Shown here: in pieces, positions 2,841 through 7,409 of the stretch
Numbering within the stretch: position 1 is the first letter of the stretch
How the letters are laid out: every line of letters begins with the position of its first letter
NCBI GenBank assembly: GCA_035717485.1
Contig: DASTIQ010000039.1
Location: 1 to 37,328 of the forward strand
Origin: Thermoanaerobaculia bacterium
GTDB taxonomy: Bacteria > Acidobacteriota > Thermoanaerobaculia > UBA5066 > DATFVB01
Direction of reading: 5' to 3'
DNA: 37,328 nucleotides
Program-made: the position numbers and the translations under genes
The notes under the pieces: generated by a model
Seen by the model: only the letters and a program-made list of their open reading frames with translations
Database searches by the model: none
What the model was told of the DNA's origin: nothing

Positions 2841-4151
2841 GTGACCGCCGAAGCCGGCTCCGCCCGACGGCTCCTCGCCGTCGCCCTCGTTTCGGGCGGA
2901 TTGTTCCTCCTCGTTCTCGGGCTCTTCGCGCTGCTCATCTTCCGTTCGCTCTCTTCGAGGCTGACGGAAACCGTTCTCGCCGAATCGCGCGCCGACGCGG
3001 AATCGATCGCCCGGAAGCTCGCGGCCGGGAGCCCGCCGCCGCTCCGCGTCTCGGAGACGACGAAGGCGACGGAGCTCTACCTCCACTCGGTGCTCCAGGA
3101 GAAGAGGACGGTCGAATACATCACGGTGACCGATCGCGAGGGGCGCCGGCTCTTCGAGGGACGAGCGGAAGGGCGGCGGACGTTCTTCGACGAGCCGCCG
3201 ACTCCCGCCCTCGACCTGCCGGACGGAACGGGCCGGCGTTCGACGCAGACGTCGTCGGACTACGACATCGCGGTTCCCATCGAGAACATCGGATTCCTCC
3301 ACGTCGGCGTGTCCAAGGATGCCGTCGCCCGCCGGCTCGAGGCGCTGCGCGCCGATCTCGCCCGCAAGACGGGGCTCGCCGCGCTCGTCGCCCTCGCGGC
3401 GCTCGCGGCGACCGACGTGTTCGTCTGGCGGCTGCTCGAGCGGAACCGCCGGCTCGAGGAGGCGAGGCTCGAGGATCGGCGCCTGTCGGAGCTCGGCACG
3501 GTCGCCGCGGGGCTCGCGCACGAGATCCGGAACCCGCTCCACGCGCTCGGCCTGACGCTCCAGAACCTCGAGGAGCGGTTTCCGGCGGAAGAACCCCGGT
3601 TCGCCGGCGCCCGCTCCGAGGTCCGCCGGCTGGACCGCCTCGTCTCCGATTTCCTGCTCTATGCCCGCCCGACGCCGCTTCGCGTCGAAGAGCAGTTCCT
3701 TCCGGCGTTCCTGCGGGAAGCCTGCGCGCTCGCCGCCGTCGAAGCGCGGCAGAAGGGAATCGCCGTCGACGTCGGAGCCGTCCCGGAGACGGCGGTCCGG
3801 TGGGACCCCGCCAAGATGCGCCAGGTCGTCTGGAACCTCGTCCGGAACGGCGTCGAAGCGAGCGCCGCGGTTCCCCCCGAGCGCCGCCGGATCGTCCTCG
3901 AAGCGGAATCCGGCGGCGGGGAAACGATCCTCCTGCGGGTCCGCGACGCGGGCGAAGGGATTCCGCCGGCGCTCCTCGCCGAGCTCCCGGCGCTCTTCCG
4001 CACGACCCGGAAGGGGGGCACCGGTCTGGGCCTGATGGTCGCGAGCCGGATCGTGAAGGAGCACGGCGGAACGCTGGTCCTCCGCTCGCGCGAAGGGGAG
4101 GGGACGGCGGTCGAGCTCACGCTTCCGCGCGAAGCGCCGGTCCCGGCCTGA
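2841..4151 (+). CDS. Membrane sensor histidine kinase, NtrB-like
   Basis: 436-residue two-component sensor kinase. An N-terminal membrane helix (about residues 12-38) is followed by a roughly 130-residue sensor region, a second hydrophobic stretch (LAALVALAALAATDVFVW), then the HisKA dimerisation domain with the phosphorylated histidine in GLAHEIRNPLHALG (His227). The ATPase domain has the N box WNLVRNGVEAS, GEGIP, and GTGLGL at about 393. The GTG at 2841 is preferred over in-frame GTGs at 2802 and 2808 because TATGAT lies 6 bases before it and none of the three has a Shine-Dalgarno sequence. No cognate receiver gene is adjacent. Candidate partners are the NtrC-type regulator at 13052 or a regulator elsewhere. 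It is convergent with the thioesterase gene. Confidence 0.88.
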   Translation: MTAEAGSARRLLAVALVSGGLFLLVLGLFALLIFRSLSSRLTETVLAESRADAESIARKLAAGSPPPLRVSETTKATELYLHSVLQEKRTVEYITVTDREGRRLFEGRAEGRRTFFDEPPTPALDLPDGTGRRSTQTSSDYDIAVPIENIGFLHVGVSKDAVARRLEALRADLARKTGLAALVALAALAATDVFVWRLLERNRRLEEARLEDRRLSELGTVAAGLAHEIRNPLHALGLTLQNLEERFPAEEPRFAGARSEVRRLDRLVSDFLLYARPTPLRVEEQFLPAFLREACALAAVEARQKGIAVDVGAVPETAVRWDPAKMRQVVWNLVRNGVEASAAVPPERRRIVLEAESGGGETILLRVRDAGEGIPPALLAELPALFRTTRKGGTGLGLMVASRIVKEHGGTLVLRSREGEGTAVELTLPREAPVPA

Positions 4152-4163
4152 GATCCCGGCGGA

Positions 4164-4628
4164 TCAGAGCGCCGTCTTCGTCTCGTCGTCCTGATCGGCG
4201 AGGATCGCGTCGGCGAGCCGGCGGAATCGCTCCGGGAGCTTGACCAGGAGCTCGCCGTCGAGGCGGGTGACGACCTGTTCGGTCGTGGCGGACGTCAGCC
4301 TCCCGCCTCCCGCCTGCCGGATCTCGTAGTCGAAGACGAACCGCGCGGTGTCCGGAGGCCGGAGCCGACCCGCGATCTCGAGCACGGCGCCGAAGCGCGC
4401 CGGTGCGTGATAGGCGATCTCCATCCGTGTGATCGGAATCAGGTACCCGGCGTCGCGCGCGGTCAGCACGCTCCACTCGTAGCGCGCGCAGACGGCGTTG
4501 CGGAGCTCCTCGAGGTACACCGCGTAACGGCCGTGCCAGACGACGCCGTACAGGTCGCATTCGGAGAACCGCACGGGAAGACGCAGCCGGAATCCGCGCA
4601 GGGGAGGAGAGCCGCGGCGGACGCTCAC
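4164..4628 (-). CDS. Hotdog-fold (4HBT, YbgC-like) acyl-CoA/acyl-ACP thioesterase
   Basis: 154-residue hotdog protein of the YbgC/4-hydroxybenzoyl-CoA thioesterase type, which hydrolyses acyl thioesters. The N-terminal signature VRFSECDLYGVVWHGRY has the Asp and Gly-Val-Val-x-His-x-x-Tyr spacing of the family. YHAPARFG and the FDYEIR strand follow as expected. The GTG at 4628 overlaps the stop of the upstream KS-like gene (GTGA), so the two are probably translationally coupled. Placement after two ketosynthase genes suggests that it releases or edits the acyl product of that set. The substrate is unknown. Confidence 0.82.
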   Translation of the reverse strand: MSVRRGSPPLRGFRLRLPVRFSECDLYGVVWHGRYAVYLEELRNAVCARYEWSVLTARDAGYLIPITRMEIAYHAPARFGAVLEIAGRLRPPDTARFVFDYEIRQAGGGRLTSATTEQVVTRLDGELLVKLPERFRRLADAILADQDDETKTAL

Positions 4629-5719
4629 GGGCGCGACAGGACGACCGAAAGGAAGTTTCCGCCCGCCCCGAAGGAGTCGACGAGCGCCGTCGAGGCGCGT
4701 CCTTCGGCGATCTCGTGGGCGGCCGCGACGAGCTGGGCCCCGCCCGCCGCCGCCATCTCTCCGATCGCCTTTTTCACTTCGATCCGGCGCTTGCCCGGTC
4801 CGAGCAGGCGCTCGAGCGCCCGTTCCTCCATCGCGTCGAGCTCCCGGCGGCCGTTCATCGACGGGAGGACCAGATCGACGGCGCCCGCGTCCGCGCCGGC
4901 GCGGTCGAGCGCCCCCCGGATCGCCGTCGCGGCCGCGTTCTCGTCGTCCGCGTAGGCGTACGGCGGGCAGGGCGACCCGGCGAACGCGTAGCCGGCGAAG
5001 CGCGCGAGCGGTCGCGCCCCCCGGGCGCGGGCGACCTCCTCGCGCTCCAGGAACAGGACGAAGCACCCTTCGCCCTGGACGATGCCCGAGGCGAGCCGCC
5101 GCCCGCGGAGCGCCCGCATCTGGTCCATGGCCGAGGAGTAGAACACGTTCCACTCGTCGACGCCCCCCGCGATCATCGCGTCGGCGCGGCCGTCCTCGAG
5201 GCATCCGGCGGCGTAGATCGCGGCGTTCAGCGCCGAAGGATCCTTCTGCGTGATGGTGACGTTGGGTCCCAGAAACTTCAGCTCGAGCGACACCTGCGAC
5301 GCCGGCGCGTTGGCGATGGTGTTCGGGAAATGGAACGGAGGGGCCGCTTCGGGTGATTCCGTGAGCAGCACGCGGATGAACTCCGTGAGCGCGCCGGATC
5401 CCGCGGACCCGGTCCCGAGCGCGATTCCGACCCGCTCGGGCCGCTCCCCGATCGGAAAACCGCTCGCGCGCGCCGCTTCGAGGCTCGCGACGACGGCGTA
5501 CTGGGAGCCGAGGTCGAGCCGGCGCGCCTTCATCGCCGGGATCTCCGGTTGAGGGGACCAGCCGTCGATGCGCGCGACCCAGCCGGCCTGACCGTCTCCC
5601 CGCTCTTCCGGGGTCATCGGCCGGACGGCCGATTCGCCGCTCCTCAACCGCCGGAGGAATTCGTCGGTGCCGCGGCCGAGGCTCGACACCGCGCCCGTGC
5701 CGGTGACGACGGCGGTCAA
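4625..5719 (-). CDS. Ketosynthase-like protein without active-site residues (chain-length-factor-like)
   Basis: 364-residue thiolase-fold protein of the beta-ketoacyl synthase family. The start (TAVVTGTGAVSSLG) and C-terminal SFGAGGNFLSVVL are typical. However, the catalytic Cys position reads TITQKDPSAL (Asp160 aligns with Cys161 of the neighbouring KS), the HGTAT segment is replaced by PSMNGRR, and the KSMIGH segment reads KKAIGE. It cannot condense by the normal route and resembles KS-beta/chain length factors, which pair with an active KS. The TTG start at 5719 overlaps the stop of the active KS (TTGA). No in-frame ATG or GTG is nearby upstream, so the two are probably coupled and form a heterodimer. 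The pairing is inference. Confidence 0.8.
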   Translation of the reverse strand: MTAVVTGTGAVSSLGRGTDEFLRRLRSGESAVRPMTPEERGDGQAGWVARIDGWSPQPEIPAMKARRLDLGSQYAVVASLEAARASGFPIGERPERVGIALGTGSAGSGALTEFIRVLLTESPEAAPPFHFPNTIANAPASQVSLELKFLGPNVTITQKDPSALNAAIYAAGCLEDGRADAMIAGGVDEWNVFYSSAMDQMRALRGRRLASGIVQGEGCFVLFLEREEVARARGARPLARFAGYAFAGSPCPPYAYADDENAAATAIRGALDRAGADAGAVDLVLPSMNGRRELDAMEERALERLLGPGKRRIEVKKAIGEMAAAGGAQLVAAAHEIAEGRASTALVDSFGAGGNFLSVVLSRP

Positions 5720-6942
5720 GCGGCCCGACCGGACTCGAAGGAGGAGAACGCCACGACCGCGCTGTTTCCGCCGAAGGCGAAGGAGCTCGAAAGGACGGCG
5801 CGAATGCGCACGGGGCGGGCGCCTTCGGTGACGTAGTCGAGGTCGCAAGCGGGATCGGGCTCCTCGAGATGGATCGTCGGTGGCGCGACCTGGTCGCGCA
5901 GCGCGAGGACGGAGATCACCCCTTCGATCCCGCCCGCCGCGCAGAGCGCGTGCCCGATCATCGATTTGGTCGAGGAAACGGGAATGGCCCGCGCGCGTTC
6001 GCCGAGCGCCGCCTTCATCGCGTTGGTCTCGGCCGAGTCGTTGGCGGGAGTCGCGGTGCCGTGGGCGTTGACGTAATCGACGTCGCCGGCATTCATGTGC
6101 GCGGAGGCGAGCGCCGCCGCGATCGTCCGCGCCCCCGCGCGGCCGGACGGCTCGGGCGCCGTCATGTGGTACGCGTCGGAGGTGACGCCGTACCCGCGGA
6201 ATTCCGCGAGGATCGTCGCGCCGCGGCGCCGGGCGCGTTCCGCCTCCTCGAAGACGAGAATGCCCGCCGCCTCGCCGATCGACAGGCCCTTCCGGTTGCG
6301 GTCGAACGGCCGGCACGGGTCGGGGTCGACGGAGCGGAGCGAATTGAAGCCGCCGTACGTCAGGCGCGCGAGCACGTCCGAGCCTCCCGTCAGCACGACG
6401 TCGGCGAGCCCCTGGCGGATCGCGTCGAAGGCGAAGCCCATCGACACGGCGGAGGAGGAACACGCGGTCGTGATCGTCGACTTGATTCCGCGGAGGCCGA
6501 AGAATTCGGCCAGCCGGTCGGTGATCGCGTCCGGCTGGTGGTTGAGGAAGCCGCTCGGCCGGGCGCGGCGGCCCGTGAGCATGCGTTCGAAGTTCGCCTC
6601 CGAATCCATGAGGCCGGAAACGCCCCCGCCGAGGATCACGCCGATGCGGGCCGGGTCCTCGCGACCGAGGTCGATCCCGGACGCCGCGATCGCCTCGCGC
6701 GCGGCGACGATCCCGATCCGGTCGGCGCGCGACATGCGGCGCCGCCGCGCGGGGTCGATGAAGCCGTCCTGGATCTCGTCGATCTGCGCCGCGGTCGTGG
6801 TCCGGTAGGCGGACGGGTCGAAGAGCGTCAGACGGCGGATGCCGCATTCGCCCGCCAGCAGCCCCCGCCACGTGGCGTCGACCGTGCCGCCGAGCGCAGT
6901 CACGGCCCCCAGTCCCGTCACGACGACGCGCCGATCCGACAT
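5716..6942 (-). CDS. Beta-ketoacyl-ACP synthase, KAS II/FabF type (KS-alpha)
   Basis: 408-residue elongating ketosynthase that condenses malonyl-ACP with an acyl primer in fatty-acid or type II polyketide synthesis. The full catalytic set is visible: Cys161 in TTACSSS, His294 in AHGTATP and His331 in KSMIGHAL, plus the C-terminal SFAFGGNSAVV loop. It heads a three-gene unit with the KS-like protein and thioesterase. No acyl carrier protein, malonyltransferase, ketoreductase or dehydratase is adjacent, so this is more likely a specialised set than the main FAS operon. The ATG at 6942 is preferred to the in-frame ATG at 6954 because the predicted -10 (TATGAT, 6955-6950) overlaps the latter. Confidence 0.88.
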   Translation of the reverse strand: MSDRRVVVTGLGAVTALGGTVDATWRGLLAGECGIRRLTLFDPSAYRTTTAAQIDEIQDGFIDPARRRRMSRADRIGIVAAREAIAASGIDLGREDPARIGVILGGGVSGLMDSEANFERMLTGRRARPSGFLNHQPDAITDRLAEFFGLRGIKSTITTACSSSAVSMGFAFDAIRQGLADVVLTGGSDVLARLTYGGFNSLRSVDPDPCRPFDRNRKGLSIGEAAGILVFEEAERARRRGATILAEFRGYGVTSDAYHMTAPEPSGRAGARTIAAALASAHMNAGDVDYVNAHGTATPANDSAETNAMKAALGERARAIPVSSTKSMIGHALCAAGGIEGVISVLALRDQVAPPTIHLEEPDPACDLDYVTEGARPVRIRAVLSSSFAFGGNSAVVAFSSFESGRAA

Positions 6943-6955
6943 ATGATCGATCATA
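6942..6955. promoter_or_regulatory. Palindrome containing two opposed -10 boxes
   Basis: The 14-bp perfect palindrome TATGATCGATCATA carries TATGAT on both strands: 6955-6950 reading toward the ketosynthase (7 bases before ATG 6942) and 6942-6947 reading toward the dCMP deaminase (21 bases before ATG 6969, leader about 15 bases). The two promoters would compete for polymerase, or a dimeric protein could control both. Confidence 0.45.
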
Positions 6956-6968
6956 ACCGAGAGATCCG

Positions 6969-7409
6969 ATGACGACGCGCGTCGACTGGCACACCTACTT
7001 CATGAACATCGCCCGGCAGGCCGCGACGCGTTCGACGTGTCCCCGCAAGCACGTCGGGGCGGTGATCGTCCGCGACCGGACGATCCTCTCGACCGGGTAC
7101 AACGGGTCGCTGCCCGGGCTCCCTCACTGCGAGGACGTCGGCTGCATGATGGAGGAGGGGCACTGCGTCGCGACGGTGCACGCGGAGGCGAACGCGGTCC
7201 TCCAGGCCGCGAAGAACGGCGTCGCGATCTCCGGAGGCGAGCTCTACACGACGGCGTCGCCGTGCTGGCCCTGTTTCAAGCTCCTCGCGACGGTCGGGAT
7301 CCGGCGGATCTACTACGCGGAGTTCTACCGGGACCCGCGCTCGCTCGAGATCGCGAAAGACGCGGGCATCGAGCTCGTCTCCCTCGCTCCGGAGCCGTCT
7401 CCGGCCTGA
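6969..7409 (+). CDS. Deoxycytidylate (dCMP) deaminase family protein, ComEB-like
   Basis: 146-residue zinc-dependent deaminase. The zinc and catalytic motif is complete: His71-Ala-Glu73 in VHAEANAV and Cys99/Cys102 in PCWPC. The N-terminal block (CPRKHVGAVIV, TGYNGSLPGLPHC) is typical of dCMP deaminases, which make dUMP for thymidylate synthesis. The extra Cys/His residues in CEDVGCMMEEGHC fit the structural zinc site seen in some members. It stands alone, divergent from the ketosynthase set, and ends 4 bases before the stop of the convergent receiver-PilZ gene. Confidence 0.9.
   Translation: MTTRVDWHTYFMNIARQAATRSTCPRKHVGAVIVRDRTILSTGYNGSLPGLPHCEDVGCMMEEGHCVATVHAEANAVLQAAKNGVAISGGELYTTASPCWPCFKLLATVGIRRIYYAEFYRDPRSLEIAKDAGIELVSLAPEPSPA

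Follow-up and report, generated by a model that had tools for sequence, protein, structure and literature searches.

Which product can be made by an operon that encodes an intact ketosynthase (KS1), a ketosynthase homologue lacking the catalytic residues (KS2) and a thioesterase (TE), with no acyl carrier protein (ACP) beside them? This arrangement is found on the minus strand of contig DASTIQ010000039.1 of a Thermoanaerobaculia bacterium (assembly GCA_035717485.1); the whole stretch of 37,328 nucleotides that was analyzed is called the window. Most likely (probability about 0.7), KS1 and KS2 act as a heterodimer in an aryl-polyene-like, reducing type II polyketide synthase (PKS) whose genes are spread across three or more conserved loci and which feeds an envelope lipid. 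In this report G000 denotes the window's own genome and G192 a congener; C-numbers denote contigs and L-numbers loci.

The features of the operon are as follows.

5716..6942, minus strand: KS1, active ketosynthase (KS-alpha / ApeO-like) with catalytic C161, H294, K326 and H331
4625..5719, minus strand: KS2, catalytically dead ketosynthase partner (chain-length-factor-like) with D160, S287, K316 and E321
4164..4628, minus strand: TE, ApeK-like thioesterase of the hotdog type (4HBT/YbgC-like); conserved motif D-x-x-x-V-x-W-H-G-x-Y
5716..5719, minus strand: TTGA stop/start overlap of KS1 and KS2 (4 nt, translational coupling)
4625..4628, minus strand: GTGA stop/start overlap of KS2 and TE (4 nt, translational coupling)
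5242-5240, minus strand: codon of KS2 D160 (Cys position)
4861-4859, minus strand: codon of KS2 S287 (first His position)
4774-4772, minus strand: codon of KS2 K316 (Lys retained)
4759-4757, minus strand: codon of KS2 E321 (second His position)

KS1 starts with the ATG at 6942 (a further in-frame ATG is located at 6954) and ends with the stop codon at 5718-5716. The TTG start of KS2 (5719-5717) lies within this stop codon, and the GTG start of TE (4628) lies within that of KS2 (4627-4625). KS2 and TE comprise 364 and 154 residues, respectively.

The KS1-KS2 pair

KS1 matches the N- and C-terminal ketoacyl-synt domains. Alignment with FabF of E. coli showed that the Cys, both His and the Lys of the active site are kept, and C161, H294, K326 and H331 are invariant over 23 KS1 sequences. 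The protein is 92% identical to its nearest relative, and the ratio of nonsynonymous to synonymous substitutions (dN/dS) between the window and G192 is ~0.07. It scores 417 bits against the fabF model, below the equivalog cut-off of 494, and 240 bits against the AmcF model, below the cut-off of 325.

KS2 contains both ketosynthase halves and matches the same domains as KS1 more weakly. In the same alignment the Cys and both His are replaced (D160, S287 and E321) and the Lys is retained (K316). All aligned orthologues of the order share these three substitutions, and the second His is a Glu within a G-E motif in 28 of 28 KS2 sequences. The Cys position is occupied by Asp in the order, by Glu in most other classes and by Gln in L043 only. 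Many alignment columns are invariant over 15 order members. KS2 is under purifying selection (dN/dS ~0.17 between the window and G192; 82% identity to the nearest relative). The dead residues are thus conserved throughout the phylum, and the inactive state is old and maintained and not an error. A sequencing error or pseudogene is ruled out by the shared substitutions together with the dN/dS.

The predicted structure of KS2 has a predicted local distance difference test score of 90.6 and a predicted template modelling score of 0.91, with residues 101-140 as the weakest stretch. It aligns over its full length with β-ketoacyl-ACP synthase II (KAS II; Z ~51, 2.1 Å over 362 residues) and also matches the ishigamide ketosynthase (Z 48). 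All KAS folds obtain nearly the same score in this search (Z 48-51), which confirms the fold and cannot pick the family. When the KS2 profile was compared with the PDB, chain C of 9s5h scored best; this chain shares the GE motif, and its entry also contains an active ketosynthase, chain B.

In both phylogenetic trees the KS2 proteins form one clade (support 100/99 and 99/99). The KS1 proteins form another, which includes ApeO of E. coli (100/99 and 98/72) and, in the second tree, the ketosynthase half of a Streptomyces fusion of ketosynthase and chain-length factor (CLF). ApeO and the CLF of this fusion are long branches. FabF, FabB and ApeR are located outside the two clades. Constraining the order's KS2 proteins with FabF costs 159 log units and is rejected by the approximately unbiased (AU) test (p-AU 1.08e-8); the corresponding constraint on KS1 costs 113 log units and is rejected as well (p-AU 0.001). 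The dead residues and the rejected clade rule out KS2 as an active FabF.

The two proteins also travel together. Wherever the contig of an order genome permits the check, KS1 lies immediately upstream of KS2, and the genes are adjacent in nearly all named relatives. The distance matrices of KS1 and KS2 from 24 genomes correlate with r 0.948 (Mantel test, 0 of 2000; 0.90 for deep lineages), which is partly due to shared species history. Furthermore, an active and a dead ketosynthase are naturally fused both at a plasmid locus of Streptomyces and in an assembly of Thermodesulfovibrionia. Assignment of KS1-KS2 as a KS/CLF-like pair is thus well supported, and the fusions and the co-evolution suggest a putative physical heterodimer.

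What an earlier note had observed in the window is confirmed, and its interpretation is borne out in part. The three open reading frames with their TTGA and GTGA overlaps are present on the minus strand, the Cys and both His of KS2 are replaced, and no carrier protein, reductase or cyclase lies beside the trio in the window. Its comparison with a KS-alpha/CLF pair gained support from the rejected FabF clade, the correlated distances, the adjacency and the fusions. The doubt that it raised itself, namely that KS2 might group with active FabF and owe its changes to sequencing errors, is answered by the rejected clade, the substitutions shared among orthologues and the low dN/dS. The description of KS1 as a KAS II-type enzyme fits only in part, as KS1 falls below the fabF equivalog cut-off and a clade with FabF is rejected.

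Two further observations concern ketosynthases. The own genome encodes another stand-alone ketosynthase with intact active residues at a contig end, beside a moeA-like gene (L053:13817-15019). In the Thermodesulfovibrionia locus, the fusion of an active ketosynthase to a dead one with the GE motif (L156:4058-6433) is accompanied by a separate KS1-KS2 pair.

Distribution and dispersed partner genes

Within the Acidobacteria, the order forms an uncultured lineage. Orthologues of KS2 are present in 17 of its 19 genomes, covering all 11 genera; the two genomes without KS2 are metagenome-assembled genomes in ~690 and ~670 contigs. In 13 of the 17 genomes TE lies next to KS2 or close by, and in L086 the contig ends too early to judge. 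TE matches 4HBT/4HBT_2 and is YbgC/FadM-like; it evolves under purifying selection (dN/dS ~0.20, window against G192).

The plain stand-alone carrier proteins of the own genome are AcpP beside fabF (C288), one on C336 and a doubtful one on C197. The other carrier-protein matches fall in long frames resembling nonribosomal peptide synthetases (NRPS) or PKS. Contig C336 (L091) carries the run GT2 glycosyltransferase, polysaccharide deacetylase, FabD-like acyltransferase (AT), ketoreductase (KR), ACP and FabZ-like dehydratase (DH). This run is called locus B, the KS1-KS2-TE operon being locus A and C308 locus C. Locus B is kept across the order regions that were read, mostly adjoining nuo genes, and its dehydratase is present in 18 of the 19 genomes. 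A search with PF07977 retrieved only the FabZ of the lpx operon; the pathway dehydratase emerged when the genes around the ACP were inspected. The ACP (L091:9518-9778) has KR and DH as its neighbors throughout the order; in phmmer it is closest to ApeE (E 2e-18) and not AcpP-like. It is a candidate for the distant dedicated carrier protein that the earlier note had proposed to look for, and we infer that it serves KS1-KS2 in the window organism.

Locus C contains a gene for a B12-radical S-adenosylmethionine (SAM) enzyme and one for a lipid-A-type acyltransferase. These are 70% and 62% identical, respectively, to genes located between KS2 and TE in G176. In the Geobacter-type loci L160 and L161, a single run comprises LPLAT, ACP, B12-radical SAM, AT, TE, KR, KS1, KS2, LolA and MMPL genes; GT2 and DH genes were identified in the run of L161. 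Because these loci hold the set in one run, the three acidobacterial loci are tied into one pathway by their gene content, and loci A, B and C may act together in the window organism. Desulfuromonadales also have the KS1-KS2 pair. In other acidobacterial classes the pair is mostly found beside ACP, dehydratase, KR, GT2, LPLAT, B12-radical SAM or MMPL-like genes; in L043 it stands alone. An earlier catalogue of KS-CLF pairs spans 14 phyla, Acidobacteria among them (PMC10132072). The literature search found no paper that describes this pathway in Acidobacteria or Geobacter.

Several genes near these loci are recorded here, of which the exosortase-like and the PilZ-like or STAS-like ones were identified by eye. 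An exosortase-like membrane gene and a partner follow the trio directly or lie near it in several order members and not in the window (L039:11143-12220, L080:7439-8562, L081:7624-8818 and L089:16343-17447). PilZ-like or STAS-like genes, possibly regulatory, directly follow the locus B dehydratase across the order (L091:8414-9064, L116:8959-9330 and L117:8835-9895). Another KS1-KS2 pair of G176, diverged from the first, adjoins an LPLAT gene (L203:2278-3743). The large PP-binding frames on C138, C217, C101 and C97 of G000 (e.g. L058-L063) probably belong to NRPS or modular PKS and are unrelated to the KS locus.

Proposed pathway, related systems and alternatives

In the proposed scheme, KS1 would condense malonyl units on the carrier protein of locus B, loaded by the FabD-like AT encoded there, and the KR and dehydratase of this locus would process each cycle. 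As no enoyl reductase was seen in the pathway loci, the chain would stay unsaturated (a polyene). KS2, unable to form an acyl-enzyme, would give half of a shared pocket and limit the chain length. The ApeK-like TE would release or proofread acyl-ACP, the glycosyltransferase of locus B and the lipid-A-type acyltransferase of locus C would attach the chain to a lipid or glycolipid, and the B12-radical SAM enzyme may make a further change. The product is probably an unsaturated chain of an unusual kind, destined for a lipid of the outer membrane. Gene content, catalytic residues, selection, conservation, co-evolution, phylogeny, fusions and the single run in Geobacter relatives are shown by the analysis, whereas the heterodimer, the product, the role of KS2 in the pocket and chain length, the polyene chemistry and the attachment to a lipid are inferred. 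The scheme is supported by what is known of type II PKS (PMC10132072), aryl polyene (PMC8253772, PMC8358021) and reducing systems (PMC10698177).

A close likeness is to the aryl polyene systems of E. coli CFT073 and Xenorhabdus doucetiae, the family to which the earlier note had pointed. KS1 groups with ApeO, and the ACP, KR (E 5e-49) and TE (E 1e-12) are homologous to ApeE, ApeQ and ApeK, respectively; the proposed function of ApeK is release or proofreading of acyl-ACP (PMC8253772). GT2 and LPLAT, which are separate genes here, both match ApeJ. These phmmer matches were obtained for loci A and B in the window genome or the congener, and for locus C in the congener. The Geobacter version likewise has LolA and MMPL genes. 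On the other hand, an ApeR-type gene is absent from the loci seen, the FabD-like AT, the polysaccharide deacetylase and the B12-radical SAM enzymes come in addition, and the acidobacterial genes are dispersed and not clustered.

Highly reducing type II PKS of actinomycetes, such as Iga11-Iga12 of ishigamide, also combine a ketosynthase with a dead partner and discrete KR and DH, and an enoyl reductase is likewise unseen. In the reducing-type Streptomyces locus the second half of the KS-CLF fusion has the K...GE motif, too. Iga12 (6kxd chain B), however, is matched weakly by sequence (42 bits) and has other residues at the Cys position, and envelope-lipid genes accompany the acidobacterial system. 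The 3-oxoacyl-ACP synthases of PDB entry 9s5h show intact active residues in chain B and the dead GE-type pattern in chain C, and the KS1 and KS2 profiles have these chains among their top matches; the literature search found no paper on this entry. Actinorhodin-type KS/CLF (1tqy) have the same architecture of an active followed by a dead ketosynthase, but the aromatic pathways include cyclases and aromatases. An aromatic type II PKS is ruled out by the absent Gln in KS2 and the other position in the tree.

Several results weigh against the proposed aryl-polyene-like PKS. KS2 is a full-length ketosynthase, whereas ApeC has about half that size and a single thiolase fold (PMC8358021), and phmmer found no match of ApeC in KS2. 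The compared CLFs of aromatic type have Gln at the Cys position, where KS2 has Asp or Glu, and are located elsewhere in the tree. KS2 is sister to the CLF of the Streptomyces fusion in one tree (100/99) and not in the second, i.e. this placement is unstable. No TE was found near KS2 in three order members (L082, L083 and L087). The locus B dehydratase is a hotdog protein with HxxPF beside the ACP, but it scores below the cut-off of the FabZ models, has no Pfam match and is not matched by ApeI or ApeP in phmmer. A search with the Geobacter MMPL exporter gave no close match in the own genome; of five relatives, three likewise had none and two had weak partial matches only. A divergent exporter is possible. 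An aryl-ACP ligase (ApeH) is absent from loci A-C and the Geobacter cluster, the whole genome not having been searched. The system seems to operate in the manner of an aryl polyene or polyene type II PKS, but because neither a half-sized ApeC nor the exporter was found, it is not classed as a member of the aryl polyene family.

The earlier note had suggested that the operon could borrow the fatty-acid machinery to make a specialized acyl chain. Such an auxiliary elongation with AcpP, FabG and FabZ, in which KS2 sets the length and TE frees the acid, would account for the fact that neither a carrier protein nor a reductase adjoins the trio, for the closeness of KS1 to KAS II in sequence and for the YbgC/FadM-like TE. 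It is nevertheless improbable: a dedicated AT-KR-ACP-DH operon, separate from the AcpP beside fabF, co-occurs with the trio in the own genome and across the order, homologues of its genes directly adjoin KS1-KS2 in relatives of Geobacter and in other acidobacterial classes, and its ACP resembles ApeE and not AcpP. That KS2 is a decaying, functionless duplicate of KS1 hitch-hiking in the operon can be practically dismissed. KS2 does evolve faster than KS1, as the identities to the nearest relatives show, but its purifying selection and the depth of its conservation refute decay. The invariant columns and the recurrence of comparable substitutions in separate classes argue in the same direction, and the KS2 clade is old and apart from the neighboring KS1 proteins.

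Somewhat less remote, yet unlikely, is a role of the dead partner other than length control, such as that of an AmcG-like cyclizing factor or of a priming malonyl decarboxylase. In AmcF-AmcG of the cispentacin pathway, a ketosynthase and a partner without ketosynthase motifs act on a discrete ACP and direct a single elongation and cyclization (PMC10698177). That nearly all relatives have an acidic residue in place of the Cys, together with the invariant Glu at the second His, suggests a positive function, and KS1 does obtain a score with the AmcF model. This score is below the cut-off, however, and the remaining pathway genes differ. By profile and fold KS2 is a full ketosynthase, in contrast to AmcG, which was described as lacking known motifs; moreover, KR and DH are present here, as in polyene systems.

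A further-reaching version of the envelope-lipid proposal must be regarded as tentative and on balance doubtful. Here the set would make an envelope lipid not described before, neither an aryl polyene nor a known polyketide, that is near-universal in the order and common to Geobacter relatives. The radical SAM enzyme would alter the chain, and Asp160 and Glu321 would have a catalytic or priming role.

If the proposed aryl-polyene-like PKS is correct, nearly all genomes of the order carry a complete type II polyketide-like pathway split over unlinked loci. Because of this split, cluster-based mining is expected to miss or mis-assign it. The order-wide conservation suggests a core envelope function and not an accessory metabolite, and the set links Acidobacteriota, Desulfuromonadales and the proteobacterial aryl polyene systems. 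Split pair, operon and fusion form a natural series for studying how a dead ketosynthase controls a live one.

Surroundings of the operon

The operon is isolated between two genes for which no part in the pathway is proposed.

6969..7409, plus strand: ComEB-like dCMP deaminase, divergent from KS1; order-wide synteny marker, outside the pathway
2841..4151, plus strand: sensor histidine kinase, convergent neighbor downstream; synteny marker without assigned pathway role

A consensus scan found no sigma-70-like promoter between KS1 and the ComEB-like gene. The starts of these two genes are ~14-26 bp apart (window:6942-6969), and the deaminase neighbor is kept in the order. Beyond the histidine kinase, an FHA/sigma-54 regulator is followed by an SMC-like gene at the window edge.

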